From positions 434,001 through 498,000 of the forward strand of contig NZ_MASU01000005.1 of NCBI RefSeq assembly GCF_003202235.1: 64,000 bases of DNA, given 5' to 3'. This document shows positions 7,847 through 46,715 of the stretch, piece by piece. Made by a program: the position numbers and the translations under genes. The notes beneath the pieces were generated by a model, which saw only the letters and a program-made list of their open reading frames with translations, was not told the origin of the DNA and searched no databases. This DNA comes from Prauserella flavalba (GTDB lineage Bacteria; Actinomycetota; Actinomycetes; Mycobacteriales; Pseudonocardiaceae). Each line of letters starts with the position of its first letter. The first letter of the stretch is position 1.

Positions 7847-7897
7847 CCCCCAAGGCCACCTTTGTTGCGTTCAACGCAACAAAGGTGGCCTTGGGGG
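7847..7897. repeat. GGCCACCTT palindrome, copy A (also likely mpa terminator)
   Basis: Twenty-five bases at 7847-7871 are the exact reverse complement of 7873-7897, with a single C between them. It begins 16 bases after the mpa stop. The same 51-bp element, reverse-complemented (central G), occurs at 46664-46714. It could form a very strong hairpin terminator, but the second copy lies upstream of a gene, so termination alone does not explain it. Confidence 0.9.
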
Positions 7898-7917
7898 CGT
7901 TTCGGTGCCCGGCGACT

Positions 7918-7935
7918 CGTATAACGGCCTATACG
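7918..7935. promoter_or_regulatory. Inverted-repeat operator CGTATA-N6-TATACG, upstream copy
   Basis: CGTATA and TATACG form a perfect inverted repeat around ACGGCC. The right half overlaps the TACGCT hexamer (7932-7937) placed six bases before the ATG at 7944, so a bound repressor would block the predicted leaderless promoter. A near-identical site occurs just after the gene. Confidence 0.7.
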
Positions 7936-7943
7936 CTGGCGGC

Positions 7944-8288
7944 ATGGACGAGCTTCGGGAGGGCCGGCTCCGCGCGCCGGTCACGGCGGCGGACCTGCTC
8001 GGCTGGCTGGAGGAGGCCGCCGCGGCCGTGCGCGCGGGCGAGGTCGACGCGGACGAGCTGATCGCGGTGCTGGGGGAGTTGCGGCAGGCCTCGACGGCGT
8101 GCGCCAACGCCTCCGACTGGGCCTTGCTCGCCGCCAGGGAGGCGGGGGCGAGCCTGCGGCAGATCGCGCCCGTGTTCGGCAAGGGCTATGTGCGGGCGCC
8201 GGCGGCGAGGCTGGAGAAGCTGCACCGCGAGGTCCTCTCGGCGGACCAGTTCCTCGAGCTGATGCGCCGCCGCCAGGCCGGGCAGTAG
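7944..8288 (+). CDS. Small helix-turn-helix protein, probable autoregulator
   Basis: A 114-residue protein of unknown family. Residues about 58-95 read as a helix-turn-helix: a first helix with WALLAAREAG, a turn (ASLRQIAPVFG) and a basic second helix (KGYVRAPAARLEKL). The N-terminal 50 residues are acidic and helical and may dimerise. The ATG at 7944 fits the TACGCT promoter hexamer and lies nine bases after an inverted repeat that recurs just downstream of the gene before the aldo/keto reductase. This layout suggests that the protein controls itself and its neighbour. DNA binding is inferred, not shown. Confidence 0.6.
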   Translation: MDELREGRLRAPVTAADLLGWLEEAAAAVRAGEVDADELIAVLGELRQASTACANASDWALLAAREAGASLRQIAPVFGKGYVRAPAARLEKLHREVLSADQFLELMRRRQAGQ

Positions 8289-8289
8289 T

Positions 8290-8307
8290 CGTATAACGAC
8301 CTATACG
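8290..8307. promoter_or_regulatory. Inverted-repeat operator CGTATA-N6-TATACG, downstream copy
   Basis: CGTATA-ACGACC-TATACG differs from the copy at 7918-7935 by one spacer base. It begins one base after the stop of the small HTH gene and lies 42 bases before the predicted -10 box (TACGGT, 8350-8355) of the next gene. Confidence 0.7.
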
Positions 8308-8362
8308 GCACGGCTTTGACGGGCCCGCTCGCGCCGTACCGCCGCAAACTACGGTGACACCC

Positions 8363-9301: not shown

Positions 9302-9350
9302 CTACTGTCATGGCCCGGTTCGGGGGTCAGCCTGAGGGGACGAGGACAGG

Positions 9351-10508: not shown

Positions 10509-10514
10509 GGACGC

Positions 10515-28476: not shown

Positions 28477-28481
28477 GCCCG

Positions 28482-28600
28482 CCAACCGCAGTGAGGGCCA
28501 CCATGCCTGCGCCCACCCGTCTCCCGCCACCACCCAAACGGAGGCGCTCCGCGCCGCTGTGTTCGACCAACGCAGTGAAGGTGGCCTTCACTGCGGTTGG
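28482..28600. repeat. GGCCACCTT repeat family, long copy C (about 119 bp)
   Basis: The terminal 21 bases, 28482-28502 and 28580-28600, are inverted repeats with one mismatch. The interior matches copy D at 34004-34115 over its whole length with about 85% identity and one single-base length difference. A perfect 11-bp hairpin lies at 28571-28595 within the right end. It fills most of the gap between the DUF4333 and GNAT genes and has no reading frame of its own. Confidence 0.88.
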
Positions 28601-28688
28601 GCTGCCTGGCGGGGCGTGGGCAAGGGCAAGGCGGGGCCGGCGCTAATCCGGTGGCGGCCGTGGGCGCAGGTGGACGAGCATCGGACCC

Positions 28689-29882: not shown

Positions 29883-29917
29883 CCTGTGAACGATCAACTT
29901 CTCCGGGGTGTCCGACT

Positions 29918-33579: not shown

Positions 33580-33911
33580 GCGCGCACCTCGGTCCGGCCG
33601 CCGAGCGTCGCGCGCACCGCCTCGAAGGTCAGCAGGCCGCACAGCGGGATCACGACGAAGAAGAGCAGCTCCTCCAGCGGCATCCCGGGCAGGACGTACA
33701 CGCCGAGGGTGTAGCGCGGGTCGATGTGCCACACGCCGCCCGCGATCGCGGCGAGGTCCCAGCCGGCGAACAACGCGGCGGCGGGAAGGACCGCGCGGAC
33801 GAGCCTGCGCGGCCTCCGGTATACCCCGGCGCCGAGGAACTCCAGCGGCAGCGTGACGGCCAGGCAGGCGGCGAGCACGAGCAGGTAGTGGAGGTGGTCG
33901 GTGGGCTCCAT
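33576..33911 (-). CDS. crtYc: Lycopene beta-cyclase subunit CrtYc
   Basis: A 111-residue protein with three membrane helices: HLHYLLVLAACLAVTLPLEF (here the helix within it), AVLPAAALFAGWDLAAIAGG and FFVVIPLCGLLTFEAV. MPLEELLFFVVIPL is the hallmark motif with the essential Glu residues, and WHIDPRYTLGVYVLPG precedes it, as in CrtYc of Brevibacterium and Streptomyces. ATG 33911 follows AAGGAT. The gene is first of the four-gene carotenoid group and has a perfect CGTGATCACG palindrome 12 bases upstream. Confidence 0.92.
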   Translation of the reverse strand: MEPTDHLHYLLVLAACLAVTLPLEFLGAGVYRRPRRLVRAVLPAAALFAGWDLAAIAGGVWHIDPRYTLGVYVLPGMPLEELLFFVVIPLCGLLTFEAVRATLGGRTEVRA

Positions 33912-33923
33912 GCGGCAATCCTT

Positions 33924-33933
33924 CGTGATCACG
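33924..33933. promoter_or_regulatory. Palindrome CGTGATCACG before crtYc
   Basis: A perfect 10-bp palindrome ends 12 bases upstream of the crtYc ATG, and a second GATCACG half-site occurs about 35 bases further up (33959-33965). It could be an operator; the regulator is unknown. Confidence 0.35.
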
Positions 33934-34003
33934 GCGTCAGGTGCGACTGGGATGCCCACGATCACGGGAGGCGAACCGGCGGGGCCGTGGCCGCGGGGCC
34001 GTG

Positions 34004-34115
34004 ACCGCAGTGAAGGCCACCTTTACTGCGCCCGCCCGTCTCCCGCACCGCCCAAACGGTGGCGCTTCGCGTCGCTGTGCTCGATCAACGCAGGCATGGT
34101 GGCCTTCACCGCGAT
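34004..34115. repeat. GGCCACCTT repeat family, long copy D (about 112 bp)
   Basis: The left end 34006-34021 and right end 34098-34113 are inverted repeats with one mismatch. The interior matches copy C at 28485-28598, including CCCGTCTCCCGC, CCCAAACGG and CGCTGTG blocks. The right end shares AACGCAGGCATGGTGGCCTT with the tandem units at 38087-38146. It lies between the microprotein gene and crtYc. Confidence 0.88.
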
Positions 34116-34120
34116 TGCGC

Positions 34121-34285
34121 TTACAGGTCCGCCTGTCCCTTGCGGGGGAGGAGCTTGACCAGCGCGACGCCCGCCATGATGAGCATCAGGCCGGCGAGCA
34201 CGAGCCACGCGGTGCTGAGCCCGGTGTAGGCGAGCGTGCCGGCGGTTCCGGTGCCCGCGGCGGTGGCGATGCCTTTGCCGTACAT
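34121..34285 (-). CDS. Microprotein with class E sortase-type sorting signal (LAYTG)
   Basis: A 54-residue protein. LAYTG at residues 24-28 fits the LAXTG signal read by class E sortases of high-GC Gram-positives. It is followed by one membrane helix (AWLVLAGLMLIMAGVALV) and a basic tail (KLLPRKG), as in cell-wall anchoring signals. Only a short Gly/Ala/Thr stretch precedes it and there is no signal peptide, so it may stay in the membrane. A GGGAGGTGA ribosome site overlaps the stop of the glycosyltransferase gene five bases upstream, tying the two together. The function is unknown. Confidence 0.65.
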   Translation of the reverse strand: MYGKGIATAAGTGTAGTLAYTGLSTAWLVLAGLMLIMAGVALVKLLPRKGQADL

Positions 34286-34290
34286 GTGTT

Positions 34291-35403
34291 TCACCTCCCC
34301 TCGGTGAGTGCGGCCGACGGCCGGGCGACGTGGTGCCAGCGGGCGGTGCGGCGAAGCACCGCGTCCCGCCACCCGGCGACGTACACCGCGAGCCGGAAGA
34401 AGTCGTAGATCATCTCGGGGACGAACAGCAGCGTGAGTCCCATGCCGCGCCAGCCCGCCTTGCGGACGGTGACGAGCCGGTCCACCAGGCACAGTGCCCC
34501 GAGGCCGAGCCAGAACGGGTGCAGCACGATCGGCTGTCCCATCGCGACGGTGGTGCCGAACAGCAGCGGATAGCCGACGATGACGGCGAAGCCGCAGAGC
34601 GCCCACAACTGCTGCGACAGGTAGGGCAGCGTCGTCCGGTTGACCCCGTGGGCGCGGAGGTTGTCGATCGCTCCGCGCTGCCAGCGCACCCGCTGCCGCC
34701 ACAGGTCCCGCCACGTGGGCATGAGCTCGGTCGTCGTCGCGCAGCGGCCCGGCGACACGCAGCGGTAGCCGAGCCGCAGGCAGGCCAGGGTGATCTCCAT
34801 GTCCTCGGTCAGCGCGGCGCGATCGTAGAACTCGCCTCGGCGGCCTGGCAGCGACCGCCCGCGCTCCTCGGCGATCCTGCGCAGTACCGAGACCCGCAGC
34901 ATGGTCGAGGTTCCCGTCAGTACCCAGACGCCGCGGCCCCGGCGCAGGACGTCCCTGGCATAGCGGACGTACTCGTTGCGCTGCAGCTGCGCGAGCATGC
35001 CGGCGCCGCCCTCGCCGTAGAAGATGCCGCCGACGGCGCCGATCGCCGGGTCGCGGTGCAGCGCCCGCAATGCGGTCGCGATCCAGTCGTCGCCGAGCAG
35101 CGAGTCGGCGTCCATGACGAGCACGAGGTCGTCGTCGTCGAGCTGGGGCAGCAGCCGGCCGAGCGCCTGGTTGAGGGCACCGGCCTTCTTGTCCACGTTG
35201 GCCTCGGTGGTGAGCACGGTGGCGCCGTGGGCGGTCGCGATGTCCGCCGTGCCGTCCGTGCAGTTGTCGGCCACCACGTACACCGCATCCGGCGGCACCG
35301 ACTGCCCGGCCAGTGAGCCGAGCGCGAGTGCGATGCTCGCCTCTTCGTCGTGTGCCGGGAGCACCGCGACAACGCGGTTACCCCCTGTCGCATGTGCTCC
35401 CAC
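34291..35403 (-). CDS. Family 2 glycosyltransferase, membrane-bound
   Basis: A 370-residue processive-type GT2 enzyme. VVAVLPAHDEEASIALAL is the N-terminal nucleotide-sugar motif, DADSLLGDDW the DXD motif, LTEDMEITL the general-base ED motif and QRVRWQRGA the QxxRW motif of polymer-forming synthases. Three to four hydrophobic helices follow (ALCGFAVIVGYPLLFG, FWLGLGALCLVDRL). It could make or decorate a surface polysaccharide or glycosylate a carotenoid. GTG 35403 is preferred for the GGAGG upstream; GTG 35442 is also possible. Confidence 0.85.
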   Translation of the reverse strand: MGAHATGGNRVVAVLPAHDEEASIALALGSLAGQSVPPDAVYVVADNCTDGTADIATAHGATVLTTEANVDKKAGALNQALGRLLPQLDDDDLVLVMDADSLLGDDWIATALRALHRDPAIGAVGGIFYGEGGAGMLAQLQRNEYVRYARDVLRRGRGVWVLTGTSTMLRVSVLRRIAEERGRSLPGRRGEFYDRAALTEDMEITLACLRLGYRCVSPGRCATTTELMPTWRDLWRQRVRWQRGAIDNLRAHGVNRTTLPYLSQQLWALCGFAVIVGYPLLFGTTVAMGQPIVLHPFWLGLGALCLVDRLVTVRKAGWRGMGLTLLFVPEMIYDFFRLAVYVAGWRDAVLRRTARWHHVARPSAALTEGR

Positions 35404-35532
35404 GGGCGACCCTGCCCTCCAGTTTCCGGGACGCGTTGTCACGCACGGTGACAATGGTCGCCGTGGAGAGGACTGTGGCGTTGTGGGAAGTTCTCCTTCG
35501 AAACCCCAGTTCCGCGCGTCGCTTTCCCCGCA

Positions 35533-35594
35533 TATAGGAAGGTGAGAGCAATTCATTAGCACGTTCGGAGTATGACGTACGTCACATTCCTATA
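35533..35594. promoter_or_regulatory. Nested palindromes upstream of the glycosyltransferase gene
   Basis: TATAGGAA at 35533-35540 and TTCCTATA at 35587-35594 are exact inverted repeats. Between them lies the perfect 12-bp palindrome TGACGTACGTCA at 35573-35584. The region (35404-35634) is AT-rich for this genome and probably holds the promoter of the glycosyltransferase gene, and perhaps more of the carotenoid group. No gene is seen in it. Confidence 0.5.
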
Positions 35595-35634
35595 CGAAGC
35601 GTGATCGACTACGGACTGTGATCCGGCCCGCGGA

Positions 35635-36465
35635 CTAGGACCAGGGTGTGACCGGGCGGGACCGTGCCACGCCATCGAGCACGACGTCGACGCGCTCGTC
35701 GAAGAAGCAGATGTGGCCGGCGATCTCGGGGAGCCCGTCCAGCGGCCGAGGGTAGGTCCACGCGATGTCGGGGTGCGTCCGCCCGCCCGCCTCGGCCGAG
35801 AAGTACGTGGCCTGGCCCTTGTAGGCGCACACGCTCGTGCTCTCCGATGGGCGCAGCAGATCCATCCGCACATCGGCCCTCGGCAGGTAGAACCGCGGCG
35901 TGAGATGTGTTTCGAAGAGCAGCAACGGCGCCGTGCTCTCGGCCAGCGGCACGCCGTCCACCTCGATGCGCACCCGGCTGGAGCTGCGCCGCACGTCGAT
36001 ACGCGAGTACGGGTCGCGGGGATGGCCGACGATCGGTTCCGCCTCTTCGAGCCACTGGTCGAACGCGTCGAAGTCGAGCACCACGTAGCCGGCCAGGTCC
36101 GGGTCGGCCGGCCGGAATCCCGCGCCCTCGAGTGACAACGCGCCCGTGCGCAGGGACACCGGATCGCCCGCGCAGGTGTGCGCGGCGAAAGCGGTGCGGG
36201 GGTCCAGGACGGGCGGGCTCTCCTCGTCGAGCGGCACCGGATGCTCGGCCGCCCCGGTCCGCTGGGCGGGCGCGATCGTCGCTCGCAGGTCCTCCTCCGG
36301 CATCGCGTAGGACGGCACTACGCGCTTCGGCTCCCACGCCAGCACGGCGCGGCGGGAGTCGGCGACCGTCTCGTCCCCGGCGATCGCCCGCACGCGCTTC
36401 CGGGTCGGCTCGAACCGGAGCTCATCGAGCTGCCGGGCGAACTGCTCGCTCAACCGCAGCGCCAT
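35635..36465 (-). CDS. DUF427 (NTP-transferase-like) tandem-domain protein
   Basis: A 276-residue protein with two DUF427 domains. The first is near residues 20-140 (RVRAIAGDETVADSRRAVL) and the second near 155-265 (RVRIEVDGVPLAESTAPLLLFE, with TSVCAYKGQATYFS and IAWTYPRPLDG). Each has the RFY-L and K-ATY blocks typical of the family, a small beta fold with no settled function. The ATG 36465 has no strong ribosome site. It is divergent from the aldehyde dehydrogenase gene. Confidence 0.85.
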   Translation of the reverse strand: MALRLSEQFARQLDELRFEPTRKRVRAIAGDETVADSRRAVLAWEPKRVVPSYAMPEEDLRATIAPAQRTGAAEHPVPLDEESPPVLDPRTAFAAHTCAGDPVSLRTGALSLEGAGFRPADPDLAGYVVLDFDAFDQWLEEAEPIVGHPRDPYSRIDVRRSSSRVRIEVDGVPLAESTAPLLLFETHLTPRFYLPRADVRMDLLRPSESTSVCAYKGQATYFSAEAGGRTHPDIAWTYPRPLDGLPEIAGHICFFDERVDVVLDGVARSRPVTPWS

Positions 36466-36572
36466 GCTGCCACTGTCCGCCCCCGGCGCCCGCCGGTCAA
36501 CGGCCTGGCGCGCCCGGCCCGCGCGTGGTCGGATGGCCGGAGACGCCCGTGACGGTGCGGAGGAGGTCGGGC

Positions 36573-38057
36573 ATGACGGCGACGACGCGGGAGCAGCGGT
36601 TCCGGATGCTGATCGGCGGCGAGGCCGTCGACGCGGCTTCCGGATCGACGTTCCCCTCGCACAACCCGTACACCGGCAGGCCGTGGGCGGTGGTGCCCGA
36701 CGCCGGCGCGGAGGATGTCGACGCCGCCGTGGCCGCGGCCCGCGCCGCGCTCGACGGGGAGTGGGCGGGTCTCACCGGTTTCGCCCGCGCCGCGCTGCTG
36801 CGCAGGCTCGGGGACCTGATCGGCGAGCACGCCGAACGGCTCGCGCGGCTGGAAGTGAACGACTCGGGCAAGCTGTACCGCGAGATGCTCGGGCAGCTCT
36901 CCGGGCTCGGTGGCTGGTACCACTACTACGCCGGGCTCGCCGACAAGCTCGAGGGCCGCCAGATCCCCACACCCAACCCTGGCTATCTCGTCTACACGCG
37001 ACAGGAGCCGGTCGGCGTGGTCGCGGCGATCACGCCGTGGAACTCGCCGTTGCTGCTGCTGACGTGGAAGCTCGCGCCCGCGCTCGCCGCCGGATGCACC
37101 GCGGTGGTGAAGCCGTCCGAGCACGCGCCGGTGTCCACGCTCGCGTTCGCGGAGCTGTTCGCCGAGGCGGGTTTCCCGCCGGGGGTGGTCAACGTCGTCA
37201 CCGGGCTCTCGCGCGAGGTCGGCGCCGCGCTGGCCGGGCATCCCGGCGTCGACAAGGTCGCCTTCACCGGATCCACGGCCACGGGCCGCGCGGTGGCCCA
37301 CGCGGCGGCGGACAACCTCAACCCCGTCACGCTGGAGCTGGGTGGCAAGTCGCCGCAGATCGTGTTCCCCGACGCCGACCTCACCGCGGCGGCGAACGGT
37401 GTCGTGGCCGGGGTCTTCGCCGCGACGGGCCAGACGTGCATGGCGGGCTCGCGCCTGATCGTCCACGAGAGCGTGCACGACGAGCTGGTGCACCTCGTGG
37501 CCGAACGGGCCGCGCGGATCCGGCTCGGCGACCCCAACGATCCCGGCACCGAGATGGGGCCCGTCGCGAACAAACCCCAGTACGACAAGGTTCTCGGCTA
37601 CCTGCGTACCGCGCGTGAGGAGGGCGCGACCATCGCCTACGGCGGTGCGGCCGACGCCGGACTCGGCGGCTACTTCGTCAAGCCCACCGTGCTCACCGGG
37701 GTCGGGCCGGAGTCCACGATCGTCCGGGAGGAGGTCTTCGGCCCCGTTCTGTCCGCCTACACCTTCGGCGACGAGGACGAGGCGCTGAAACTCGCCAACG
37801 ACACGCCCTACGGCCTCGCGGGCGCGGTGTGGACGAAGGACGTCCACCGCGCGCACCGGGTGGCGGCGCGGCTGCGAGCGGGCACGGTGTGGGTCAACGC
37901 CTACCGCGTGGTCGCCCCCAGTGTGCCGTTCGGCGGCTACGGCCTCTCCGGCGTCGGCAGGGAGAACGGCGTGGCGGCGATCGAGCAGTACACGCAGACC
38001 AAGTCCGTCTGGGTCGAGCTCACCGGCGGCACCCGCGACCCGTTCACCCTGGGCTGA
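36573..38057 (+). CDS. NAD(P)-dependent aldehyde dehydrogenase
   Basis: A 494-residue enzyme that oxidises an aldehyde to its acid. TPWNSPLLLLTWKLAPAL binds cofactor, FTGSTATGRAVA is the glycine motif, LELGGKSPQIV holds the general-base Glu and GQTCMAGSRL holds the nucleophilic Cys. The start was set at ATG 36573 because GGAGGAGG lies six bases before it; a much longer open frame upstream has no support. The substrate is unknown. A tandem palindromic repeat follows the stop within five bases. Confidence 0.92.
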   Translation: MTATTREQRFRMLIGGEAVDAASGSTFPSHNPYTGRPWAVVPDAGAEDVDAAVAAARAALDGEWAGLTGFARAALLRRLGDLIGEHAERLARLEVNDSGKLYREMLGQLSGLGGWYHYYAGLADKLEGRQIPTPNPGYLVYTRQEPVGVVAAITPWNSPLLLLTWKLAPALAAGCTAVVKPSEHAPVSTLAFAELFAEAGFPPGVVNVVTGLSREVGAALAGHPGVDKVAFTGSTATGRAVAHAAADNLNPVTLELGGKSPQIVFPDADLTAAANGVVAGVFAATGQTCMAGSRLIVHESVHDELVHLVAERAARIRLGDPNDPGTEMGPVANKPQYDKVLGYLRTAREEGATIAYGGAADAGLGGYFVKPTVLTGVGPESTIVREEVFGPVLSAYTFGDEDEALKLANDTPYGLAGAVWTKDVHRAHRVAARLRAGTVWVNAYRVVAPSVPFGGYGLSGVGRENGVAAIEQYTQTKSVWVELTGGTRDPFTLG

Positions 38058-38061
38058 CCAC

Positions 38062-38146
38062 CGCAGTGAAGGCCACCTTCACTGCGCTGAACGCAGGTAT
38101 GGTGGCCTTCACTGCGGTGAACGCAGGCATGGTGGCCTTCACTGCG
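38062..38146. repeat. GGCCACCTT repeat family, tandem copy E (terminator-like)
   Basis: A perfect hairpin CGCAGTGAAGG...CCTTCACTGCG occupies 38062-38086. It is followed by two tandem 30-bp units, 38087-38116 and 38117-38146, which differ at only two or three positions and each end in GGTGGCCTTCACTGCG. The array fills the gap between two convergent genes and could terminate both. Confidence 0.9.
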
Positions 38147-38167
38147 GGCGGCGGGGCGGGGTGAGGG

Positions 38168-39328
38168 TCAGGACATCGCGTTGATGCCCGTGAGGTCCCT
38201 GCCGATGATCAGCTTCTGGATCTGGCTCGTGCCCTCGTAGAGGGTCAGCACGCGGGCGTCCCGGACGTACTTGCCCGCCGGGTACTCGTCGATGAAGCCG
38301 TAGCCGCCGAACACCTGGAGGCAGTTGTTGCTCACCCGCACGGCGGTCTCGCTCGCGTGATACTTCGCGGCCGAGGCGTCGGTCGCGTAGTCCTTCGGCT
38401 TCACGCCCGCGTCAGCCATGCGCGCGACGTGGTGGGTCAGCAGCCGCGACGCCTGCACGTCCACCGCCGCGTCGGCGAGCAGCTCCTGCACCAGCTGGAA
38501 GGACGCGATCGGCTTGCCGAACTGGTCGCGTTCCCCGGCGTAGCGGGTCGCGGCGTCGAGCGCCGCCTGCGCGACGCCCACCGCGCCGGCCGCGACGGAG
38601 ATCCGGCCCCGCGACAGCGCGCCGAGCGCGATGCCGAGCCCGCGGTCCACCTCGCCGAGCCGCGCCGAATCGGGCACCCGCACGTCGTCGAACGTGAGCT
38701 CCGCGGTGGCCTGCCCGCGCAGGCCGAGCTTGCCCTTGATCTCGGTGGCCGTGAAGCCGGGAGAGTCCGTGGGCACCAGGAAGGCCGTGATGCCCGACTC
38801 GCTCGTCCGCGCGAAGGTGAGCGCGACCTTCGCCTGGGTTCCGTTGGTGATGAACAGCTTGCTGCCGCGCAACACCCAGTCGCTCCCGTCGCGGACCGCG
38901 CGCGTGCGCAGCGAGCCGGCGTCGGAACCCGTGCCTGGTTCCGTGAGCCCGAAGCAGCCGAGCGCCTCGCCGCTCACCAGGCGCGGCAGCCATTCCCGCC
39001 GCTGCTCCTCGGTGCCGTGGCCGGCGATGGTCTTGGTGACCAGGCCGAGCGACACCGACACGATGCCGCGTACGGCGGAGTCGCCGCGCCCCAGCTCCTC
39101 GGTCACCAGCACGTAGGAGAGCGTGTCGGCGTCGACCCCGCCGTAGCGCTCGTCGACCATCAGCCCGAGGAAACCCAGCTCTCCCAAGCGTTTCACGATG
39201 GCCGGATCGACGCGCTCGGCGCGGTCCCAGTCCCGTGCGTGCGGGACGATCTCGGCGTCCACGAACCCGGCGGCCAGGTCGCGGATGTCGCGCTGGGTCT
39301 CCGTGAGCCCGAAGTCGCGGGAGAGCAT
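38168..39328 (-). CDS. Acyl-CoA dehydrogenase
   Basis: A 386-residue flavoenzyme that introduces the alpha-beta double bond of acyl-CoA. CFGLTEPGTGSDAGSL and FITNGTQAKVALTFA bind FAD and substrate, and LYEGTSQIQKLIIGR near the C-terminus includes the catalytic Glu region of short-chain and glutaryl-type members. The start overlaps the stop of the hydroxyacyl-CoA dehydrogenase gene by one base. It is the last gene of the minus-strand operon. The acyl chain length cannot be told from sequence. Confidence 0.92.
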   Translation of the reverse strand: MLSRDFGLTETQRDIRDLAAGFVDAEIVPHARDWDRAERVDPAIVKRLGELGFLGLMVDERYGGVDADTLSYVLVTEELGRGDSAVRGIVSVSLGLVTKTIAGHGTEEQRREWLPRLVSGEALGCFGLTEPGTGSDAGSLRTRAVRDGSDWVLRGSKLFITNGTQAKVALTFARTSESGITAFLVPTDSPGFTATEIKGKLGLRGQATAELTFDDVRVPDSARLGEVDRGLGIALGALSRGRISVAAGAVGVAQAALDAATRYAGERDQFGKPIASFQLVQELLADAAVDVQASRLLTHHVARMADAGVKPKDYATDASAAKYHASETAVRVSNNCLQVFGGYGFIDEYPAGKYVRDARVLTLYEGTSQIQKLIIGRDLTGINAMS

Positions 39329-40848
39329 CAGTGGATGTCCTTTCCGGACTCGGTGACGTCGGAGGGCGACGTTCCCCGCTCGGTCAGCGGGAGACCGAGC
39401 TGCGCGCGCTCGGTGAGCCAGCGCGTGGGCCGGTAGCGGGGGTCGCCGGTGCTCGTGTGCAGGTTCCGTTGCAGCTCGAGGAGTTTCGTGCCGCCGATCC
39501 GCTCGCCCCAGGCGAGCGGGCCGACCGGATAGCCGAGGCCGGTGGTGACCGCGACGTCGATGTCGCCGGGGCTCGCGATGCCGCGCTCGGCGATCGACGC
39601 GGCGACGGAGACGATCGACGACACCAGCCGCTGGGCGGGGGAGCCCGCGCTGTCGCGCACCACCGACACGGTGTGCTCGCCGAGCGCGAGCACCGCCCGC
39701 GCGTCGCGCGCGAACGCGGGGTCGGTCGCCGGGGTCACCGCGAGCACGCGCCGCGACGACGGCAGCGACAGGGGATCGACGCCGACGGTGCGGGCCGCGG
39801 GGAGCCCGTCCCCGGCGATGCTGGCCGACACCGTGGTTCCCCACGTCGCCACCAGCACCACGGCGCCGGGCGACGGTGCGTCGCCGTCCTCCACCGTGGC
39901 GCCCGCCCCCGCCAGCGCCTCCCGGATGTCCGCATCGGACGTCCACACGGGACGCCGCGCGTCGCCCGTGACCGGTGCCTCCCCGGGCGCGATCGCGCCC
40001 TCGGTGTGGTCGAACCAGCCGCGACCGGTCTTGCGGCCGTGCAGGCCCGCGGCGACCCGGTTCGGCGTGAGGAACGAGGGGCGCAGCCGGTCGGAGTAGC
40101 GGAAGCCGTGCCAGATCGAGTCGATCACCGCGGCCGTGACGTCGAGGCCGGTGAGGTCCATCAGCTCGAACGGGCCCATCTTCAGGCCGAGCACGTCCCT
40201 CGCGATGCGGTCCAGCTCCGCCGGCTCGGCGACCTGCTCCTCCAACAGCGCCAGCGCCTCGGTGACCAGGCCCCGGCCGGCGTGGTTGATGAGGAAGCCC
40301 GGGGTGTCGGCGACGACCACGGCGCGGTGTCCGGTGTCGCGGACCAGCGTGGTGAGCGAGTCCACGATGTCCGGCCGCGTCCGCGCGCCGGGGATCACCT
40401 CGACGATCTTCATCAGCGGCACGGGGTTGAAGAAGTGCAGCCCGCACAGCCGTGACGGCTCGCCGAGCCTCGCGGCGATCTGCGTGATCGGCAGCGACGA
40501 GGTGTTGGTGGCGAACACGGTGTGGGCGGGCAGCACCGCCTCCAGTTCGGTGAACAGGGCGGCCTTGGTGTCGAGGTCTTCCCTGATCGCCTCCACCACC
40601 AGGTCGACGTCGTCGCCCGGCTTGCCGGGGGAGTCCACGGGCACGAGCCGCGCCGCGATGGCCGCGGCCTCCTCGGCGCTGGTCCTGCCTTTGGCGACGG
40701 CGCGGTCGAGCAGGCCGCGGACGAACGTGATCGCCTCATCCACCGACTCCTGCCGGGCGTCGGCCAGCTCCACGGTGTGCCCTGCGGTGGCGGCCCACTG
40801 GGCGATGCCCCGGCCCATCACTCCGGTGCCGATGATCCTGATGCGCAT
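39328..40848 (-). CDS. 3-hydroxyacyl-CoA dehydrogenase with two C-terminal domains
   Basis: A 506-residue NAD-dependent dehydrogenase. IIGTGVMGRGIAQWAA (near residue 4) is the Rossmann motif, TNTSSLPITQIA and GLHFFNPVPLMKIVEVI hold the catalytic Ser/His region. Two 3HCDH C-terminal domains follow, the second (FVNAGL-like GLGYPVGPLAWGERIG) near residue 430. The two-domain form is about 200 residues longer than the usual enzyme and is common in actinobacteria, PaaH-type. It oxidises a 3-hydroxyacyl-CoA. A GAGGAGAG site precedes ATG 40848. Confidence 0.9.
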   Translation of the reverse strand: MRIRIIGTGVMGRGIAQWAATAGHTVELADARQESVDEAITFVRGLLDRAVAKGRTSAEEAAAIAARLVPVDSPGKPGDDVDLVVEAIREDLDTKAALFTELEAVLPAHTVFATNTSSLPITQIAARLGEPSRLCGLHFFNPVPLMKIVEVIPGARTRPDIVDSLTTLVRDTGHRAVVVADTPGFLINHAGRGLVTEALALLEEQVAEPAELDRIARDVLGLKMGPFELMDLTGLDVTAAVIDSIWHGFRYSDRLRPSFLTPNRVAAGLHGRKTGRGWFDHTEGAIAPGEAPVTGDARRPVWTSDADIREALAGAGATVEDGDAPSPGAVVLVATWGTTVSASIAGDGLPAARTVGVDPLSLPSSRRVLAVTPATDPAFARDARAVLALGEHTVSVVRDSAGSPAQRLVSSIVSVAASIAERGIASPGDIDVAVTTGLGYPVGPLAWGERIGGTKLLELQRNLHTSTGDPRYRPTRWLTERAQLGLPLTERGTSPSDVTESGKDIH

Positions 40849-40878
40849 GTTCCGATCTCTCCTCGATGTGGCGTGCAC

Positions 40879-41652
40879 TCAGCGTAGGTAGACCCGGCCG
40901 GGGTCGACGTCCTCGCGCAGCAGCCGCAGCTCGGCGGCCGTGGGCGGTTCGACGGTGACGAGGTCGTCGGCGACGGCGAGGTCCCAGCCGGTGGACTCGC
41001 GCACCCGCCCCGGTGTGACGCCCGGGTGCACCGCCACGAGCCGCAGCTGTTCGCCGGGTCCGCTCCTGGCGAGGATGCCGAGCTCGGTGACCACCCTCGT
41101 GACACCGGCGCCCAGCGGGCGGACGCCCTCGGCCAGCGCCCGGTCGGGCCCGGGTGAGGTGCAGAAGTCGAGCTCGTCCACAAAGGACCTCCGGTCGTGG
41201 CGGCGCATCACCACGAACACCTCGCGCGAGTTGGCCATCACCTCCATCGCACCACCAGGGCCGGGCAGGCGCACCTTCGGCGCGTGCCAGTCGCCGATGA
41301 CCGAGGAGTTGAGGTTGCCGAAGCGGTCGATCTGGGCCGCGCCGAGGAAACCGACGTCGATGTGCCCGCCCTGCAGCACGTAGCCGAACAGCACGGGCAT
41401 CGGCAGCACCGCCTCCGCGCCCGTGATCAGGACGGCGTCGGCGATGGTCTCCGGCAGGTGCGAGGGATGCGCGCCGCACACGCCGGATTCGTAGACGATC
41501 TCCAGCTCGGGCGCGACCGTCAGGTGCGCGAGCGAGGCCGCCAGCGTCGGCAGGCCGATGCCGGCGAAGACGGTGCGCCGTGCCCGCAGCTCGCGCGAGG
41601 CGACGACGGCCAGCAGCTCGGAGGAGGTGTACTCGCGGGTCCGAAGGGTCAC
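40879..41652 (-). CDS. CoA-transferase family I, beta subunit
   Basis: A 257-residue subunit. YESGVCGAH near residue 54 includes Glu55, which matches the catalytic Glu position of glutaconate-type CoA-transferase beta subunits (typical motif with E in the -ESG- or -ENG- turn). GGHIDVGFLGAAQIDRFGNLNSS is a conserved block. Members transfer CoA between acids or, in IpdAB, hydrolyse a steroid-derived ring. GTG 41652 overlaps the alpha-subunit stop. Together with the two dehydrogenases it suggests catabolism of a dicarboxylic or ring-derived acid. Confidence 0.85.
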   Translation of the reverse strand: MTLRTREYTSSELLAVVASRELRARRTVFAGIGLPTLAASLAHLTVAPELEIVYESGVCGAHPSHLPETIADAVLITGAEAVLPMPVLFGYVLQGGHIDVGFLGAAQIDRFGNLNSSVIGDWHAPKVRLPGPGGAMEVMANSREVFVVMRRHDRRSFVDELDFCTSPGPDRALAEGVRPLGAGVTRVVTELGILARSGPGEQLRLVAVHPGVTPGRVRESTGWDLAVADDLVTVEPPTAAELRLLREDVDPGRVYLR

Positions 41653-42587
41653 AGCCGCCTCCCGTAGTTCACCGGCAGGCTCAGGGCCTCGCCGACCTCG
41701 AGTCCGGCCCAGAACTCCGTGCCGAGCTTCGCGACGTACGCGGCGTGGTCGGCCGTGCTGTGCACCCATTCCGCGAGCCACGCCTGGAGGCGGTCCGGGT
41801 CCCTGCTGATCGCCGACCACGATCGGTAGAAGGCGTTGTCGCGGTCGTAGTAGCCCTGGGCGAAGGAGGGGTGCGCGCCGCGCGGGCATTCCACGACGGC
41901 GTCCACCACGTGCGCGGGGATCACGGTGCGGTTGGGGTCGGAGCGCACCACCTCGTCGGCCACGATCTCCTCCACCACCACGACGGCCCTGCGCGCGGCG
42001 AACACCGCCTCGGCCTGCACGCCCGTGAGGCCCCAGACCTGCGTGTTGCCGGCCCGGTCGGCGCGCTGCGCGTGCACAATCGTCACGTCCGGGTTCACCG
42101 GCGGCACGACGTACACGCGCTCGCCGGCGTAGGGCGAGGTCACCGTCCGGATGGCCGTGTTGACCGACGGCAGGTCGCTGCCTGCGTAGGAACGCAGCGG
42201 GTAGAAGGGCAGACGCTGGGCGCCGGCGAGGTACCGGCAGATCATGCCGTAGTGGCTGTACTCCTCGAACTCCAGCGGCTCCGGCTCGGCGCTCTCGACA
42301 CGCCTGCGCAGCTCGCCCAGCGAGCCCGCCGAGGAGTTGCCCACGAACGACGAGACGAGCTTGCTCACGCAGCCCGCGGCGAGCAGCTGGTCCACCACGA
42401 TGTCCGCGGTCATCCGCACGATCGTCAGCCCCCGGCGGCCCTGCCGGATGATCTCGTGCCCCGCCGCGGTCGGGATCAGGTGCGTGAACCCCTCCAGCGA
42501 CACGGTGTCGCCGTCGTGCACGTGCGCCGCGATGGCCTCGCGCATGGTCATCGTCTTGTCCGGCGGGGCCGGTACTGACCGGGGCAT
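41649..42587 (-). CDS. CoA-transferase family I, alpha subunit
   Basis: A 312-residue subunit partner of the beta subunit downstream. It has the N-terminal VHDGDTVSLEGFTHLIPTAA block, GNSSAGSLGELRR and NPDVTIVHAQRADRAGNTQVWG, read in the IpdA/GctA style. An N-terminal ATG at 42587 with GGAGC upstream is used; ATG codons at 42551 and 42545 are alternatives. It is divergent from the LysR regulator and heads the operon. It most resembles glutaconate- or steroid-ring-type CoA-transferases; no steroid genes are close. Confidence 0.85.
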   Translation of the reverse strand: MPRSVPAPPDKTMTMREAIAAHVHDGDTVSLEGFTHLIPTAAGHEIIRQGRRGLTIVRMTADIVVDQLLAAGCVSKLVSSFVGNSSAGSLGELRRRVESAEPEPLEFEEYSHYGMICRYLAGAQRLPFYPLRSYAGSDLPSVNTAIRTVTSPYAGERVYVVPPVNPDVTIVHAQRADRAGNTQVWGLTGVQAEAVFAARRAVVVVEEIVADEVVRSDPNRTVIPAHVVDAVVECPRGAHPSFAQGYYDRDNAFYRSWSAISRDPDRLQAWLAEWVHSTADHAAYVAKLGTEFWAGLEVGEALSLPVNYGRRL

Positions 42588-42646
42588 CGTCGGGCTCCAG
42601 TGCTCGGGTGCGGCGGTGACGGGTGGCTCTCACCTTGCCAGCCCGC

Positions 42647-42663
42647 ATTGTTTCCCGTCCAAT
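42647..42663. promoter_or_regulatory. LysR-type binding site candidate
   Basis: ATTG-N9-CAAT forms a perfect inverted repeat and contains a T-N11-A core (T at 42649, A at 42661), the usual layout of LysR-family sites. It lies in the divergent space between the CoA-transferase operon and the LysR gene. Confidence 0.55.
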
Positions 42664-42715
42664 ACCGAATTAAGGTCAGATTGATACGGATGTCGTTTCA
42701 GTCTGGGAGTGACCG

Positions 42716-43618
42716 GTGGAGCTGCGCTACCTGACGTCGTTCGTGGCCGTGGCGGAGGAACTGCACTTCGGCCGCGCCGCCAAGCGGCTGCGCATGGCCC
42801 AGCCACCGCTGAGCCAGCAGATCCGTCAGCTGGAGAAGGAACTGGGCGTGCAGCTCTTCGAGCGCAACACCCGCTCGGTGCGGCTGACGAGCGCGGGGGA
42901 GTCGTTCCTGGAGCCGGTGCGCCGCGTGCTCGACGACCTCGACCTCGCGACGCGGGCCGCGAAGGCCGCGGGCCGCGGCGAGTACGGGCGGGTGAGCGTC
43001 GGCTTCGCCGGCGCGTCGAGCCACGAGAGCCTGCCGCTGCTGACCAGGGCCGTCCGGGCGGCGCATCCGGGGCTGGAGCTGGTGATGAAAGGGCAGACCT
43101 ACGCCAACGTCGCGCTCGCGCGGGTCGCCGACGGCTCGCTCGACCTCGGGTTCGTCCGGTTGCCGGTGACACTGCCGGGTGTGGCGGCGCGGGTGATCGA
43201 CGAGGAGGAGGTGGTGTGCGCGCTGCCGTCCGACCACCCGCTGGCGCGGCGCGACGACATCGCGGTCGGCGACCTGGCGCGGGAGCCGTTCGTGAGCTTC
43301 CCGGCCAACGCGGGCTCGACGGTGCGGGAGGCGACCGTCCGCATCTGCGGCGAGGCCGGGTTCAACCCACGCGTGGTGCAGGAGGCCCCCGATTCCTGGA
43401 CGATACTGGCGCTCGTCGCCGCCGGGGTCGGTGTGACGCTCACGCTCAGCTCGTGTCAGCACATCCAGCAGACCGGGCTCGTCTACCGCCCGCTCGCGGG
43501 GCCCCGCGAGCGGCTGCAGGCCGCGCTCGCGTGGCGGCCGGACAACCCGTCGGCGGCGCTGCGCACGGTGCTCGCGATCGCCGAGCAGGCGCTGCCGACG
43601 CCCGCGCCGGCCCACTGA
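42716..43618 (+). CDS. LysR-family transcriptional regulator
   Basis: A 300-residue regulator. The N-terminal winged HTH (residues 1-60) reads LRYLTSFVAVAEELHFGRAA and LRMAQPPLSQQIRQLEKELG, typical of the BenM/CatR group of LysR proteins. The C-terminal domain (from about 90) has the periplasmic-binding-protein fold and would sense a pathway intermediate. GTG 42716 follows GGGAG. It is divergent from the CoA-transferase/dehydrogenase operon and probably activates it. Confidence 0.92.
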   Translation: MELRYLTSFVAVAEELHFGRAAKRLRMAQPPLSQQIRQLEKELGVQLFERNTRSVRLTSAGESFLEPVRRVLDDLDLATRAAKAAGRGEYGRVSVGFAGASSHESLPLLTRAVRAAHPGLELVMKGQTYANVALARVADGSLDLGFVRLPVTLPGVAARVIDEEEVVCALPSDHPLARRDDIAVGDLAREPFVSFPANAGSTVREATVRICGEAGFNPRVVQEAPDSWTILALVAAGVGVTLTLSSCQHIQQTGLVYRPLAGPRERLQAALAWRPDNPSAALRTVLAIAEQALPTPAPAH

Positions 43619-43736
43619 GCCGCTGCCGCGCCGGGCACCTCCCCGGCGCCGGTGCTTGCCGAGTTCGTCCCCCGCGAGCGGACGGTTCCCGAATCCCGCT
43701 GGTTGCGGCGTCACCCGAACGGGTATCCGAGCTCCC

Positions 43737-43841
43737 ATGCGAAGGATCAGCGAAGTTCTGCAGATGATCGGAAGCACCATCGCGAACGTGGTCACGTTGC
43801 CGTTCCGGGCCCTCGCGCGCGTCCTGCGGCCGCGCCGCTGA
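43737..43841 (+). CDS. LPFR-motif microprotein
   Basis: A 34-residue basic peptide: one amphipathic or membrane-surface helix (ISEVLQMIGSTIANVVTLPF) followed by RALARVLRPRR. The LPFRAL block matches a group of small actinobacterial proteins known to me as LPFR-motif proteins, of unknown function. The ATG 43737 has only a weak ribosome site. It lies 35 bases before the STAS-kinase gene. It is short enough that chance cannot be excluded, but the motif is specific. Confidence 0.6.
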   Translation: MRRISEVLQMIGSTIANVVTLPFRALARVLRPRR

Positions 43842-43875
43842 GCCGAGGGCCAAGGTCGGCACGAGGAGCGGTGGG

Positions 43876-44607
43876 ATGACTTCTCCCAGCAGCCTGCTGA
43901 CGATCCACGTGGCTGACGTCGCCGGCTGCCTCGTGGTCCGGCCGGAAGGCGAACTGACCGCGGGAACGTATTCCGGGCTGCGGGACACGCTCGTCAGATG
44001 CGCCGTCGAGGAGCCGGACGCCGTGGTGGTCGAACTCGACCGGCTCTGGTTCGCCTCGGACGCGTCGGCGACCGCGCTCACCAGCGCGTACGCGTGCATC
44101 GCCGAATGGCCGGCCGTGCCGTTGTCCGTGGTGGTGCGCGACCAGGCGCGCCACCGCTGGATCCGGTCGACCTCGATCGACCGGTTCCTCGCGGTGTTCC
44201 CCGACCTGGAGTCGGCGCTCGCCGCCGTCGGGACCCCACCGCCCCGGCGCCGGGCCGTCGCCGCGGTTTCCTCCGGAGCCCTTGCCAGGCGGTTCGCCGA
44301 GGGGGTCCTGCGTCGCTGGAACGCCGCGGGCCTGGCCTACGACGCGAAGCTCGTCGTGACTGAACTGGTGGAGAACACGATGCGGCACACCGTGTCGGAT
44401 CCCGTGGTGCGGCTCGAGTCGTGGCAGGACAGGGTGACCGTCGCCGTGGCCGACGACGACCCGGCGCCGGCGGTCCTGCACGAGCGGGCCGATGGTGCCT
44501 CCCGCTGCTCCGGCCTGCGGCTCGTCGCGCGGGTCGCACGGGCGTGGGGGAGCGCACCGGCTTCGGGCGGAGGCAAGGTCGTCTGGGCGACGTTGCGCGT
44601 ACCGTAG
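43876..44607 (+). CDS. STAS domain fused to GHKL-type kinase (anti-anti-sigma plus anti-sigma)
   Basis: A 243-residue fusion. Residues 1-115 are a STAS domain (GCLVVRPEGELTAGTYS ... VVVELDRLWFASDASATAL); the phosphorylated Ser position of the usual D-S-S-G is here in SDASA. Residues 130-243 are an HATPase_c domain of the SpoIIAB/RsbW type: ELVENTMRHT is the N box with its Asn, VAVADDDPAP the G1 box and GLRLVARVARAWG the G2-like region. In Bacillus the two parts are separate proteins of a partner switch. The target sigma factor is unknown. A GAGGAGCGG site precedes the ATG. Confidence 0.85.
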   Translation: MTSPSSLLTIHVADVAGCLVVRPEGELTAGTYSGLRDTLVRCAVEEPDAVVVELDRLWFASDASATALTSAYACIAEWPAVPLSVVVRDQARHRWIRSTSIDRFLAVFPDLESALAAVGTPPPRRRAVAAVSSGALARRFAEGVLRRWNAAGLAYDAKLVVTELVENTMRHTVSDPVVRLESWQDRVTVAVADDDPAPAVLHERADGASRCSGLRLVARVARAWGSAPASGGGKVVWATLRVP

Positions 44608-44704
44608 TGCGCGTGGGAGACGGCCGCTCGGCGTGACGGAACGGCTCTCGTGCGCTCGCATCGGGCAATAGCATGGCCTTCTCCGCTCGGGAGGAGGCGC
44701 GACC

Positions 44705-45082
44705 ATGATGGAACAGCCGTTGCCGCCAGACAGCGACCTGCTCTTGCACTCCGATGTGTGCTGGCCCGCCGTCGATGTCGCCCTCGTCGTCGTCAGCGGG
44801 GAGATCGACCTCGGCACCGCCCCGCAGCTCGTCGCCGCGATCACCGGGCCGCTGCGGAGCCTCCCTCGTGTGCTGGTCGTGGACCTGCGGCCGGTGCGGT
44901 TCCTCGGCGTGGCCGGGCTGAACGCGCTCACCGAGTCCCGTGCCACGGCGGCGGCCCACGGTGTCACGGTCCGCATCGTCACCGGCGGGCAGGGATGGCT
45001 GGAGCGGCCCATCCAGCTGTGCGGCCTCTCCGACGTGCTGCCGGGCTACCAGACCGTCGACCACGCGCTGGAGACTGACTAG
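44705..45082 (+). CDS. STAS-domain protein lacking the usual phosphoserine
   Basis: A 125-residue anti-anti-sigma-like protein. VVVSGEIDLGTAPQL is the STAS opening and VLVVDLRPVRFLGVAGLNAL corresponds to the strand and helix that normally read F-D-S-S-G-L; here Ser is replaced by Val and Ala. If the alignment is right, the protein cannot be inactivated by the standard phosphorylation. GGGAGGAGG lies six bases before ATG 44705; ATG 44708 is also possible. The stop overlaps the convergent sugar porter gene. Confidence 0.8.
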   Translation: MMEQPLPPDSDLLLHSDVCWPAVDVALVVVSGEIDLGTAPQLVAAITGPLRSLPRVLVVDLRPVRFLGVAGLNALTESRATAAAHGVTVRIVTGGQGWLERPIQLCGLSDVLPGYQTVDHALETD

Positions 45083-46500
45083 CGGACGTCCTCGATCGCC
45101 GTCCCCTTCGTCTCCTTGATGAACCTCAGGACGAAGGGGATCGAGAGCACGGCGAACCCGGCGTAGATCCAATAGGTCACACCGAGGTTCCAGGTGCCCA
45201 TGCTCGGGAACGACACCGTCACCAGCCAGTTGGCGATCCAGTTCGCGGCGGTGCCCACCGCGAGGGCGGCCTCGCGGATGCGCAGGGGGAACATCTCGCC
45301 GAGCAGCACCCACAGGATCACGCCCCACGACAGCGCGAACGAGAGCACGAAGACGTTGGCGAACACCAGTGCGACCGGACCCCACGCGCCGGGCAGGTGG
45401 AGCGAGCCGTCGACCGTCACCGCGTTGCCGAACGCCACGGCCGCGACGCCGAGGCCGATGGCCATGCCGACGGAACCGATGAGCAGCAACGGTTTCCGGC
45501 CGATCCGGTCGATGAAGGCGATGGCGATGAACGTGCCGAGGATGTTGATCGTCGGACTGACCATCGAGATGAGCAGCGAGTCGGTGTTCTGGCCGACCGA
45601 GTGCCACAGGGTGTCCGAGTAGTAGAAGATCACGTTGATGCCGACGAACTGCTGGAACGCGGCGAGCGCGATGCCGATCCAGACGATCGGCAGCAGGCCG
45701 AAGCGCCCGCCGATGATGTCGCGCACGGCGGGCCTGCGCTCGCTGCGCAGCTCCCGCCGGATGTCGGCGAGCTTGGCCTCCGCGGCGTCGCCCTCCACCT
45801 GGGCGAGCACGGCGCGGGCCTTGTCGATCTTGCCGATCGAGACGAGGTAGTGCGGAGACTCGGGGATCACGGAGGCGAGTACGAAGTAGACGATGGCGGG
45901 GACGGCGGCGGCGCCCAGCATCCACTGCCACGCCTCGATCCCGCCGAGGGTGCCGTTGATGTCGTGCGTGCCGTCCGCGCCGATGGGCGAGGAGTCCTTG
46001 ATGACCCAGTTCACGAGCGCGGACATGCCGATGCCGAGCACGATGGCGAGCTGTTGCAGCGACGCCAGCCTGCCGCGGTAGGCGGGCGGCGCGACCTCGG
46101 CGATGTAGGCGGGCCCGATCACGGAAGCGACACCGATGGCGACGCCGCCGACGACGCGCCAGATCGCGAGGTCCCATACGGCGAAGGGGAACATCGCACC
46201 GATCGCGCTGACGAAGAACAGCACCGCGGCCAGCTGCATCGTGCGGATGCGGCCGACGCGCCGGGACAGCACCCCGCCGAACCAGGCACCCACCGCGGAG
46301 CCGATCAGCGCGGAGGACACGGTGAGCCCGGTGACGCCCTCGCCCACGTCGAAATGTCGCTGGATGCCGAGCACGGCGCCGTTGATGTTCGAACTGTCGT
46401 AGCCGAACAGGAAGCCGCCGACAGCGGCCGCTCCGGCGATGAAGACGACGTGCGCGAGGTGTTGCTGGCCGGTGCGCTCACCGGCCGATGCCGTGCTCAC
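45079..46500 (-). CDS. MFS sugar porter
   Basis: A 473-residue transporter with twelve membrane helices. The sugar-porter signatures are present: GVLSRRVGRIR after helix 2, GRLASLQQLAIVLG, PESPHYLVSIGK in the central loop and FIDRIGRKPLLLIG after helix 8. It is expected to import a hexose or pentose with protons, similar to XylE/GlcP. GTG 46500 follows GGAG. An inverted repeat (46530-46564) lies just upstream. No sugar kinase or regulator is adjacent, so the substrate is unknown. Confidence 0.9.
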   Translation of the reverse strand: MSTASAGERTGQQHLAHVVFIAGAAAVGGFLFGYDSSNINGAVLGIQRHFDVGEGVTGLTVSSALIGSAVGAWFGGVLSRRVGRIRTMQLAAVLFFVSAIGAMFPFAVWDLAIWRVVGGVAIGVASVIGPAYIAEVAPPAYRGRLASLQQLAIVLGIGMSALVNWVIKDSSPIGADGTHDINGTLGGIEAWQWMLGAAAVPAIVYFVLASVIPESPHYLVSIGKIDKARAVLAQVEGDAAEAKLADIRRELRSERRPAVRDIIGGRFGLLPIVWIGIALAAFQQFVGINVIFYYSDTLWHSVGQNTDSLLISMVSPTINILGTFIAIAFIDRIGRKPLLLIGSVGMAIGLGVAAVAFGNAVTVDGSLHLPGAWGPVALVFANVFVLSFALSWGVILWVLLGEMFPLRIREAALAVGTAANWIANWLVTVSFPSMGTWNLGVTYWIYAGFAVLSIPFVLRFIKETKGTAIEDVR

Positions 46501-46529
46501 AACCCACTCCTAGCTCCGGCTCTCGTTCG

Positions 46530-46564
46530 CTGGACCATCCGGAGTAACGGTAGGAGTGGTCCAG
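46530..46564. promoter_or_regulatory. Inverted repeat upstream of the sugar porter gene
   Basis: CTGGACCA (46530-46537) and TGGTCCAG (46557-46564) are exact inverted repeats with a 19-base gap that contains a minus-strand TACCGT hexamer (46546-46551). A second pair, CCACTCCT (46504-46511) and AGGAGTGG (46552-46559), overlaps it. A repressor site is plausible. Confidence 0.45.
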
Positions 46565-46662
46565 ACAATGTCGGGTACGGCGGTGACCTTTCCCACGCTC
46601 CGGTTTCCGTCGCTGACGGCTACCCGGCTGGCTCCCATCCGACACGACGCGTGACCCGATGG

Positions 46663-46715
46663 GCCCCCAAGGCCACCTTTGTTGCGTTGAACGCAACAAA
46701 GGTGGCCTTGGGGGC
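46663..46715. repeat. GGCCACCTT palindrome, copy B
   Basis: The 25-base arms 46664-46688 and 46690-46714 are perfect inverted repeats around a G, extended by one outer G-C pair. The 51-bp core is identical to copy A at 7847-7897 in the opposite orientation. It lies in a divergent intergenic region 31 bases before a start codon, where a terminator is not expected. Confidence 0.9.

Follow-up and report, generated by a model that had tools for sequence, protein, structure and literature searches.

Five palindromic elements lie scattered over a stretch of 64,000 nucleotides from Prauserella flavalba (contig NZ_MASU01000005.1, positions 434,001 to 498,000 of the forward strand; hereafter the window), and the question that they raise is whether such repeats are mere passengers or perform a task where they lie. 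We lean toward the latter answer, namely that the elements are two-way terminator or 3′-end hairpins that lack a U-tract and multiply as a repeat family. That transcription stops at them, and by what route they are copied, we infer from DNA sequences.

All five elements were found by direct reading where an original prediction, made from the letters alone, had placed them, with the common arms AAGGCCACCTT/AAGGTGGCCTT (no strand is assigned to the palindromes):

7847–7897: type A element, perfect 51-bp palindrome, 41-bp core at 7852–7892, CCCCC-AAGGCCACCTT-TGTTGCG-TTCAA-...
28482–28600: type B element, long form, arms at 28494–28588, outer stem CCAACCGCAGTG/CACTGCGGTTGG, loop filled by a repeat here called X
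28512–28566, plus strand: repeat X in the loop of the preceding element, CCCACCCGTCTCCC...CAAACGGAGGCGC...TGTTCGA, ends approximate
34004–34115: type B element, long form, core at 34013–34106, loop filled with repeat X
34031–34084, plus strand: repeat X in the loop of the preceding element, ends approximate
38062–38146: type B array made of three arms, one every 30 bp, core at 38069–38139
46664–46714: type A element with central G in a divergent gap, same palindrome as 7847–7897

The window contains 12 copies of the word GGCCACCTT, where shuffling would lead one to expect 0.19, and none of 100 shuffles had as many; seven of these copies lie within the five elements and the remaining five inside called genes. 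Each element outfolds every one of 200 shuffles of itself (z −3.8 to −10.2). The two 51-bp palindromes, which had been described as identical, are one perfect palindrome that differs only in its central base (C at 7847–7897, G at 46664–46714), and the tandem array is present as described. Type A reads CCCCC-AAGGCCACCTT-TGTTGCG-TTSAA-CGCAACA-AAGGTGGCCTT-GGGGG, and type B has the outer stem GCAGTG/CACTGC and an inner stem ending in CTGCG. The elements at 28482–28600 and about 34004–34115 do share an interior, as had been noticed of these 112–119-bp copies; they are nested composites with X in the loop, not longer members of the family.

A Repeat Family of the Pseudonocardiaceae

The identical 41-bp core occurs 48 times in the 8,093,541-base genome that holds the window (G000), and the 41-bp geometry, with at most two mismatches in its 18 arm positions, is found at 289 places, the reversed-pattern control giving 0. 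The earlier claim of a replicating small palindromic repeat, which few copies and no displaced counterparts in relatives would have contradicted, is borne out by these hundreds of copies and by the presence in relatives of counterparts, some at the same position and some elsewhere.

Of 297 Pseudonocardiaceae genomes, the own one among them, 36 have exact arms spaced 8–30 bases apart; these belong to 9 of 46 genera. When at most two mismatches were allowed, 47 of 60 family genomes had a match, counts of 1–3 being at the level of the reversed control; a relative of the same genus (G053) had 122 places, two genomes of genus g15 had 233 and 162, and G014 had none. In a sample of 148 genomes of the class, matches came from the own genome and one other only, and the single place in the latter has an unpaired interior. 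Within what was searched, the family is confined to Pseudonocardiaceae. The exact core was also found in 24 stretches, all from Prauserella endophytica, of a collection in which 84,980 species are represented by one genome each and from which the window's own genome was possibly left out.

A plasmid or phage origin was rejected, since the 53-bp palindrome and X had no match in plasmid and phage collections; the X pattern had no exact match in viral contigs either. Rfam returned 0 window matches at the gathering score, below which stood MIR1437 at an element (E 0.74) and, on two X-bearing stretches from outside the genus, MIR2600 (L199, E 0.0007) and CRISPR-DR28 (L196, E 0.54). A literature search, with subscription journals mostly outside it, found no paper naming this palindrome family.

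Position Relative to Genes

The placement of the elements was read with our own gene caller over 1.66 Mb of G000 and 0.70 Mb of a relative, G084. These stretches hold 115 elements (86 and 29, respectively): convergent gaps account for 63, tandem gaps for 40 and divergent gaps for 3, and the other 9 fall within called genes. When gaps of 60–600 bp are considered, occupancy is 58 of 134 for convergent, 39 of 505 for tandem and 2 of 346 for divergent ones (convergent vs. divergent, Fisher P 1e-34). In convergent gaps the distance from element to nearest stop is mostly 8–48 bp, and in tandem gaps 34 of 39 elements are closer to the upstream stop codon than to the downstream start (P 2e-6). One of the five tandem exceptions, the window element at 34004–34115, vanishes once an open reading frame (ORF) missed by the gene caller, which has a 60-codon floor, is counted:

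34121–34285, minus strand: 54-codon ORF with a GGGGAGG ribosome-binding site, its stop (34121) 6 bp from the end of the 34004–34115 element; no Pfam family at E 0.001

Elsewhere in the window, the type A element 7847–7897 starts 17 bp beyond the last base of a proteasomal ATPase gene (6106–7830), and the array sits between the convergent genes 36573–38057 (+) and 38168–39328 (−). In two genomes of other genera (G020 and G009), 10 of 16 elements are convergent, 4 are tandem and 2 have no called right-hand gene. The elements have the mark of the I-shaped, U-lacking kind of terminator, namely a strong, GC-rich hairpin placed shortly downstream of the stop codon. The terminator reading had not been drawn in the original prediction, though the elements had been seen to follow genes; 46664–46714 is an exception, being upstream of a gene and not behind one.

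The elements fill short convergent gaps. Once the element is masked, the remainder is shorter than 40 bp in 49 of 65 occupied gaps (median 20 bp), whereas 5.2 would be expected if insertion were uniform per base (maximum 17 in 5000 draws) and 35.5 if each gap were equally likely (maximum 49). An ordinary hairpin is the usual content of element-free convergent gaps of 40–80 bp (23/40); the corresponding fractions are 5/100 below 40 bp, 2/16 at 81–150 bp, 10/27 at 151–300 bp and 10/23 at 301–2000 bp. Another hairpin (score of at least 10) stands beside the element in 4 of the 65 occupied gaps.

Hairpin Structure and Covariation

Most of the 11 single members of G000 (e.g., C5:852411) are stand-alone hairpins with a 3-base loop, and the 11 single arms in the 1.66 Mb are at least 7 kb from one another. 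The double type B element consists of two such units, inverted relative to each other and 30 bp apart, to which arrays add further units every 30 bp; type A is not made of self-paired units. The outward end consensus is GGGGGC-GTT for type A and CACTGC-G-T-GG for type B. A third palindrome type, CCCCAAGGCACTGTGGTCGCG-TTSAA-..., which has ends and loop in common with type A, was seen in G000 near 737870 of contig C5 and in one convergent gap of C1.

Covariation was assessed on 93 elements from 14 genomes, copied by hand among the matches listed, in which the inner seven pairs lie outside the arms used for the search. These inner pairs are Watson-Crick in 505 of 651 cells, compared with 267 when right halves are shuffled (maximum 320). 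Arm changes are paired as well: AAGGGCACCTT goes with AAGGTGCCCTT in G053, and GGCCCCCTT and GGCCTCCTT variants occur in g15 (G015 and G054). Across genera, the stems change while pairing is kept. In type B elements of G000 and G084, a set that includes orthologous copies of both species, the two halves are equal in 23 of 46 against 10.5 expected (0 of 5000 shuffles reach 23), and 23 of 46 are hybrids of two half-variants. Locus-specific outward growth of the stem was considered as proof of stem selection and left unused as weak (type B, 7.23 bp vs. 6.79 bp shuffled, maximum 7.33 of 500; type A, 4.90 bp vs. 4.82 bp in shuffles).

Turnover at Conserved Sites

A hand-tabulated comparison of G000 with G084 gave 31 comparable sites with flanks about 85–99% identical. 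Both species carry an element at 25 of them, only one species does at 5, and at 1 a family member faces a third kind of hairpin, type C (a type A copy at C23:238872 of G084 opposite CCCCCAGTGCGCTGTGGTCGCGTT... of G000). Type and form are the same at 15 of the 25 shared sites and different at the following 10:

422828, 824522: type A vs. type B
253684, 331125, 468013, 551130, 577054: short form vs. long form, array or compound
551529, 709980, 852411: single vs. double or long form

For five of the 25, the comparison depends on a single flank or on a contig or stretch end (410287, 462494, 480669, 605906, 814634). Sites were dropped where there was no flank (91887 and G084 C23:372547), where the other side differs (C56:168561), where the sequence is a non-member (654281) or where element and neighbor gene are both missing in G084 (472069).

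Within the window, G084 has the same element at 7847 and at 46664, the long form at 28482 as in G000 (within the stretch read), and the short form at 34004 where G000 has the long one; the 38062 element is absent along with its neighbor gene. Past the end of the proteasomal ATPase gene, where G000 and G084 carry type A, G053 shows a perfect but unrelated hairpin. The target-site duplications that the original prediction had suggested looking for were not seen by eye at the five one-sided sites or for 46664 in G053, a weak negative as the sites differ beyond the element.

Two further observations concern the surroundings of these copies. About 2.8 kb of the window with three called genes (43851–46664) is missing in G084, the break lying directly beside the 46664 element. 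A G084 contig ends tens of bases past the copy matching 28482–28600 and the next contig begins just beyond; such repeats may break assemblies.

Repeat X Nested in Hairpin Loops

The extra ~54 bases of the long form are X, CCCRCCCGTCTCCC-N-CC-N-CCACCCAAACGGAG-N-CGC..., placed between the two stem halves. X is found in loops of either stem type, A or B, and in either orientation, and at site 577054 G000 has the short form and G084 the X-bearing form, with both flanks in common. With at most two mismatches, X turns up in 12 of the 297 genomes, counting the own one, and these represent 6 of the 46 genera. Twelve X-bearing stretches from outside the genus were read. In G020, X fills the loops of AAGGCC hairpins (L196, L199); it also lies in loops of unrelated hairpins in G020 (L198) and G041 (L205), and probably in those of shorter hairpins in G163 (L200–L202). 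L198 holds four tandem X with 53-bp spacing (starts 196, 249, 302 and 355) in the loop of a GAGGGAGCTTTACTACCG hairpin. No flanking palindrome is visible around X in L197, which is inside a called ORF, L203, L204, L206 and L207. A looser search of the G000 and G084 stretches gave 22 X, of which 18 are near family elements, one is inside an element at a stretch end and three stand apart. Armless X were seen in contig C2 of G000 near 14300 and 71482, both degenerate, and near 293822.

These finds make X an independent ~54-bp repeat with a preference for hairpin loops; besides the family's palindromes, it is met in unrelated hairpins, by itself and, in other genera, as tandem copies. As a parent of the palindrome family it was rejected, since X occurs without arms and is also present in genus g33, where no exact-arm pair turned up in the genomes sampled.

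How the Elements May Work and Spread

In the terminator reading, RNA from either strand would fold, right past the stop codon, into a stem of ~23–26 bp (short form) with a UUCAA/UUGAA-like loop, so that one element between convergent genes could serve both. Copies would spread and replace each other at gene ends, the sites staying occupied while the hairpin type is exchanged, and an element could occupy a place that in a relative holds an ordinary hairpin. The combination of left and right stem variants suggests repair or template-switch copying between dispersed copies, to which a low rate of new insertion would add sites; the long form would arise once X enters the loop.

We also entertain, as possible but doubtful, a wider proposal in which the elements are exchangeable terminator cassettes of the Pseudonocardiaceae: gene-end sites would be held for long while hairpin types are swapped among dispersed copies, and the gene-less X would home, in several genera, into the loops both of these cassettes and of terminator hairpins unrelated to them, by means of a non-Y1 enzyme. 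No mobilizing enzyme was found, an autonomous parent with the same ends not having been searched for as such.

If the terminator reading is true, a large part of the terminators of convergent genes would be given over to one replicating repeat family, and terminators would evolve by replacement beyond point change alone. Sister species with different hairpin types at the same site would then offer a testable model of U-tract-less termination in GC-rich actinobacteria. A small repeat that enters hairpin loops would call for a copying enzyme of its own.

Several observations weigh against termination as the task of the elements. On the side of structure, they lack the run of U after the stem of a classical Rho-independent terminator: the 10 nt after the stem contain 1.95 T against a background of 1.69, and a T-run terminator scan of 28000–47999, which covers four of the five elements, gave 4 sites against 3.7 in shuffles and none at the elements. 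G-U and A-C mismatches in tandem gaps number 19 and 16, without strand bias, so that nothing in the pairing points to action in RNA as opposed to DNA. The halves of type A elements are equal in 25 of 36, where 22.6 would be expected (P 0.05). Taken genome by genome, the excess of pairing reaches significance in 3 of the 14; of these 14 genomes, 10 have only 1–6 listed elements, and the 13 listed elements of G270 give P 0.16. On the side of position, one window copy (46664–46714) sits in a divergent gap, between 45079–46500 (−) and 46746–48605 (+), and convergent gaps tolerate insertions best anyway. G053 has no element at window 28482 and 46664 and no strong hairpin there by eye, and a strong hairpin is likewise lacking by eye from the element-free species at 4 of 5 readable one-sided G000/G084 sites. 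Finally, the argument that elements had replaced hairpins, drawn from the missing second hairpin in occupied gaps, was dropped because the length-matched test was not significant (3/16 vs. 45/107 free gaps for remainders of at least 40 bp, P 0.10; 1/49 vs. 5/100 below 40 bp); on that test, elements may still have inserted into short hairpin-free gaps.

Alternative Explanations

The main rival is a tolerated repeat that aims at stop codons, i.e., elements like miniature inverted-repeat transposable elements (MITEs), without a job, which would insert behind genes or at any place and whose copies survive only where nothing is disturbed, chiefly behind genes or between convergent ones. As in MITEs, terminal inverted repeats are present, the whole element being an inverted repeat, and the 48 exact 41-bp copies, the one-sided sites (5/31), the divergent-gap copy lacking in G053 and the non-significant length-matched comparison all fit; convergent enrichment of pneumococcal repeats has been read as tolerated insertion (in the part of PMC3049150 drawn on here). 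However, uniform-per-base insertion is rejected by the short remainders (49/65 vs. 5.2), so tolerated insertion needs a strong aim at stop codons. Sites persist while the type changes (10/25), copies in tandem gaps crowd the upstream stop (34/39), stem pairing is kept across genera, and neither a transposase with these ends nor a target duplication was found. We consider this rival unlikely, if a serious contender.

Palindromes can also be kept by quasi-palindrome correction, i.e., hairpin-templated copying. That such copying, and not selection, maintains the stems seems to us quite unlikely. It is favored by the coexistence in type B of an excess of equal halves with hybrids in half of the elements (23/46), and by G270, where spacing is fixed and interiors are poorly paired (53/91 inner pairs); it leaves the stop-codon position unexplained, and may act beside the terminator explanation. 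In contig C1 of G270, arms and 19-bp spacing are kept while the two sides of the interior often fail to match as complements, as though each half came from a different variant.

The elements could instead act as DNA, easing supercoiling between convergent genes either as cruciforms or as pairs of sites bound by gyrase or a nucleoid protein; the recognized part would be an 11-bp near-palindrome at a fixed spacing of 30 bp. The 30-bp arm spacing common to several genera and to arrays speaks for such sites, as does the missing RNA-strand bias of wobble pairs. Yet arm conservation is partly a result of the arm-based search, arms change along with their partners (in G053, G015 and G054), protein sites would not need paired drift of a variable stem, and tandem-gap elements sit by the upstream stop. 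We consider this explanation very unlikely.

Repetitive extragenic palindromic (REP) elements moved by a REP-associated tyrosine (RAYT, Y1) transposase, to which the original prediction had looked, resemble the elements in size, palindromy, copy number and intergenic position and are rejected as hardly credible, as PF01797, found in 5 of 14 control genomes, has 0 matches in the 8.09-Mb genome and the ends carry no GTAG or CGTC tag.

Comparison with Known Systems

The comparisons below draw on parts of the cited sources. The closest described kind is the SPRITE repeat of Streptococcus pneumoniae, a dispersed terminator-like hairpin enriched between convergent genes and near 3′ ends, for which co-option as terminators was suggested by its authors (PMC3049150). 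The likeness is one of description, SPRITE sequence being no part of it, and covers hairpin repeats, convergent enrichment and 3′-end proximity. SPRITEs have an 18-bp stem and a long uridine-rich tract, whereas the present stems are longer and symmetric and have no U-rich tail; moreover, there are here hundreds of copies, several exchangeable types, several genera of one family and a nested loop repeat.

A second parallel is given by DNA uptake sequences, whose pairs form terminator stems (Kingsford 2007, as cited in PMC2267715). In both cases a short repeated word in inverted pairs makes a stem behind genes, but here the word is rarely in coding DNA (9/115 elements in called genes) and far less dense. 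In Streptomyces clavuligerus, 3′ ends lacking U are highly structured and two-way (PMC8269248); long stems, few uridines and two-way use are common to both, although those 3′ ends are not described as a repeat family in the part of that source used here.

REPs and bacterial interspersed mosaic elements (BIMEs) are palindromes of 20–40 bp, and CGTC-tagged REPs appear without a dedicated transposase in the consulted part of PMC3733652. The present family differs from them in having neither tag, CGTC being missing from the end consensus of both types, and no Y1 enzyme in the genome. The insertion sequences IS1397, ISKpn1 and IS621 target REP palindromes (PMC1525189) and resemble X in that a second element enters a repeated palindrome, but X is ~54 bp long, gene-less and found in loops of several unrelated hairpins.

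Neighboring Genes and Other Repeats

Another interspersed repeat, GCGAGTCGTGCGTTC with its reverse complement, is clustered between convergent genes (in free convergent gaps of G000); it had no window match with up to 3 mismatches. Ten proteins neighboring the window elements were scanned against Pfam, which gave families for 8, none of them a transposase. These families include the proteasomal ATPase, a DUF4333 protein, an acetyltransferase, an aldehyde dehydrogenase, an acyl-CoA dehydrogenase, a sugar transporter and a Na/H exchanger. The last of these, encoded at 46746–48605 (+), carries a ubiquitin-hydrolase-type zinc finger (PF02148) at its C-terminus and shares the window with the proteasomal ATPase gene.

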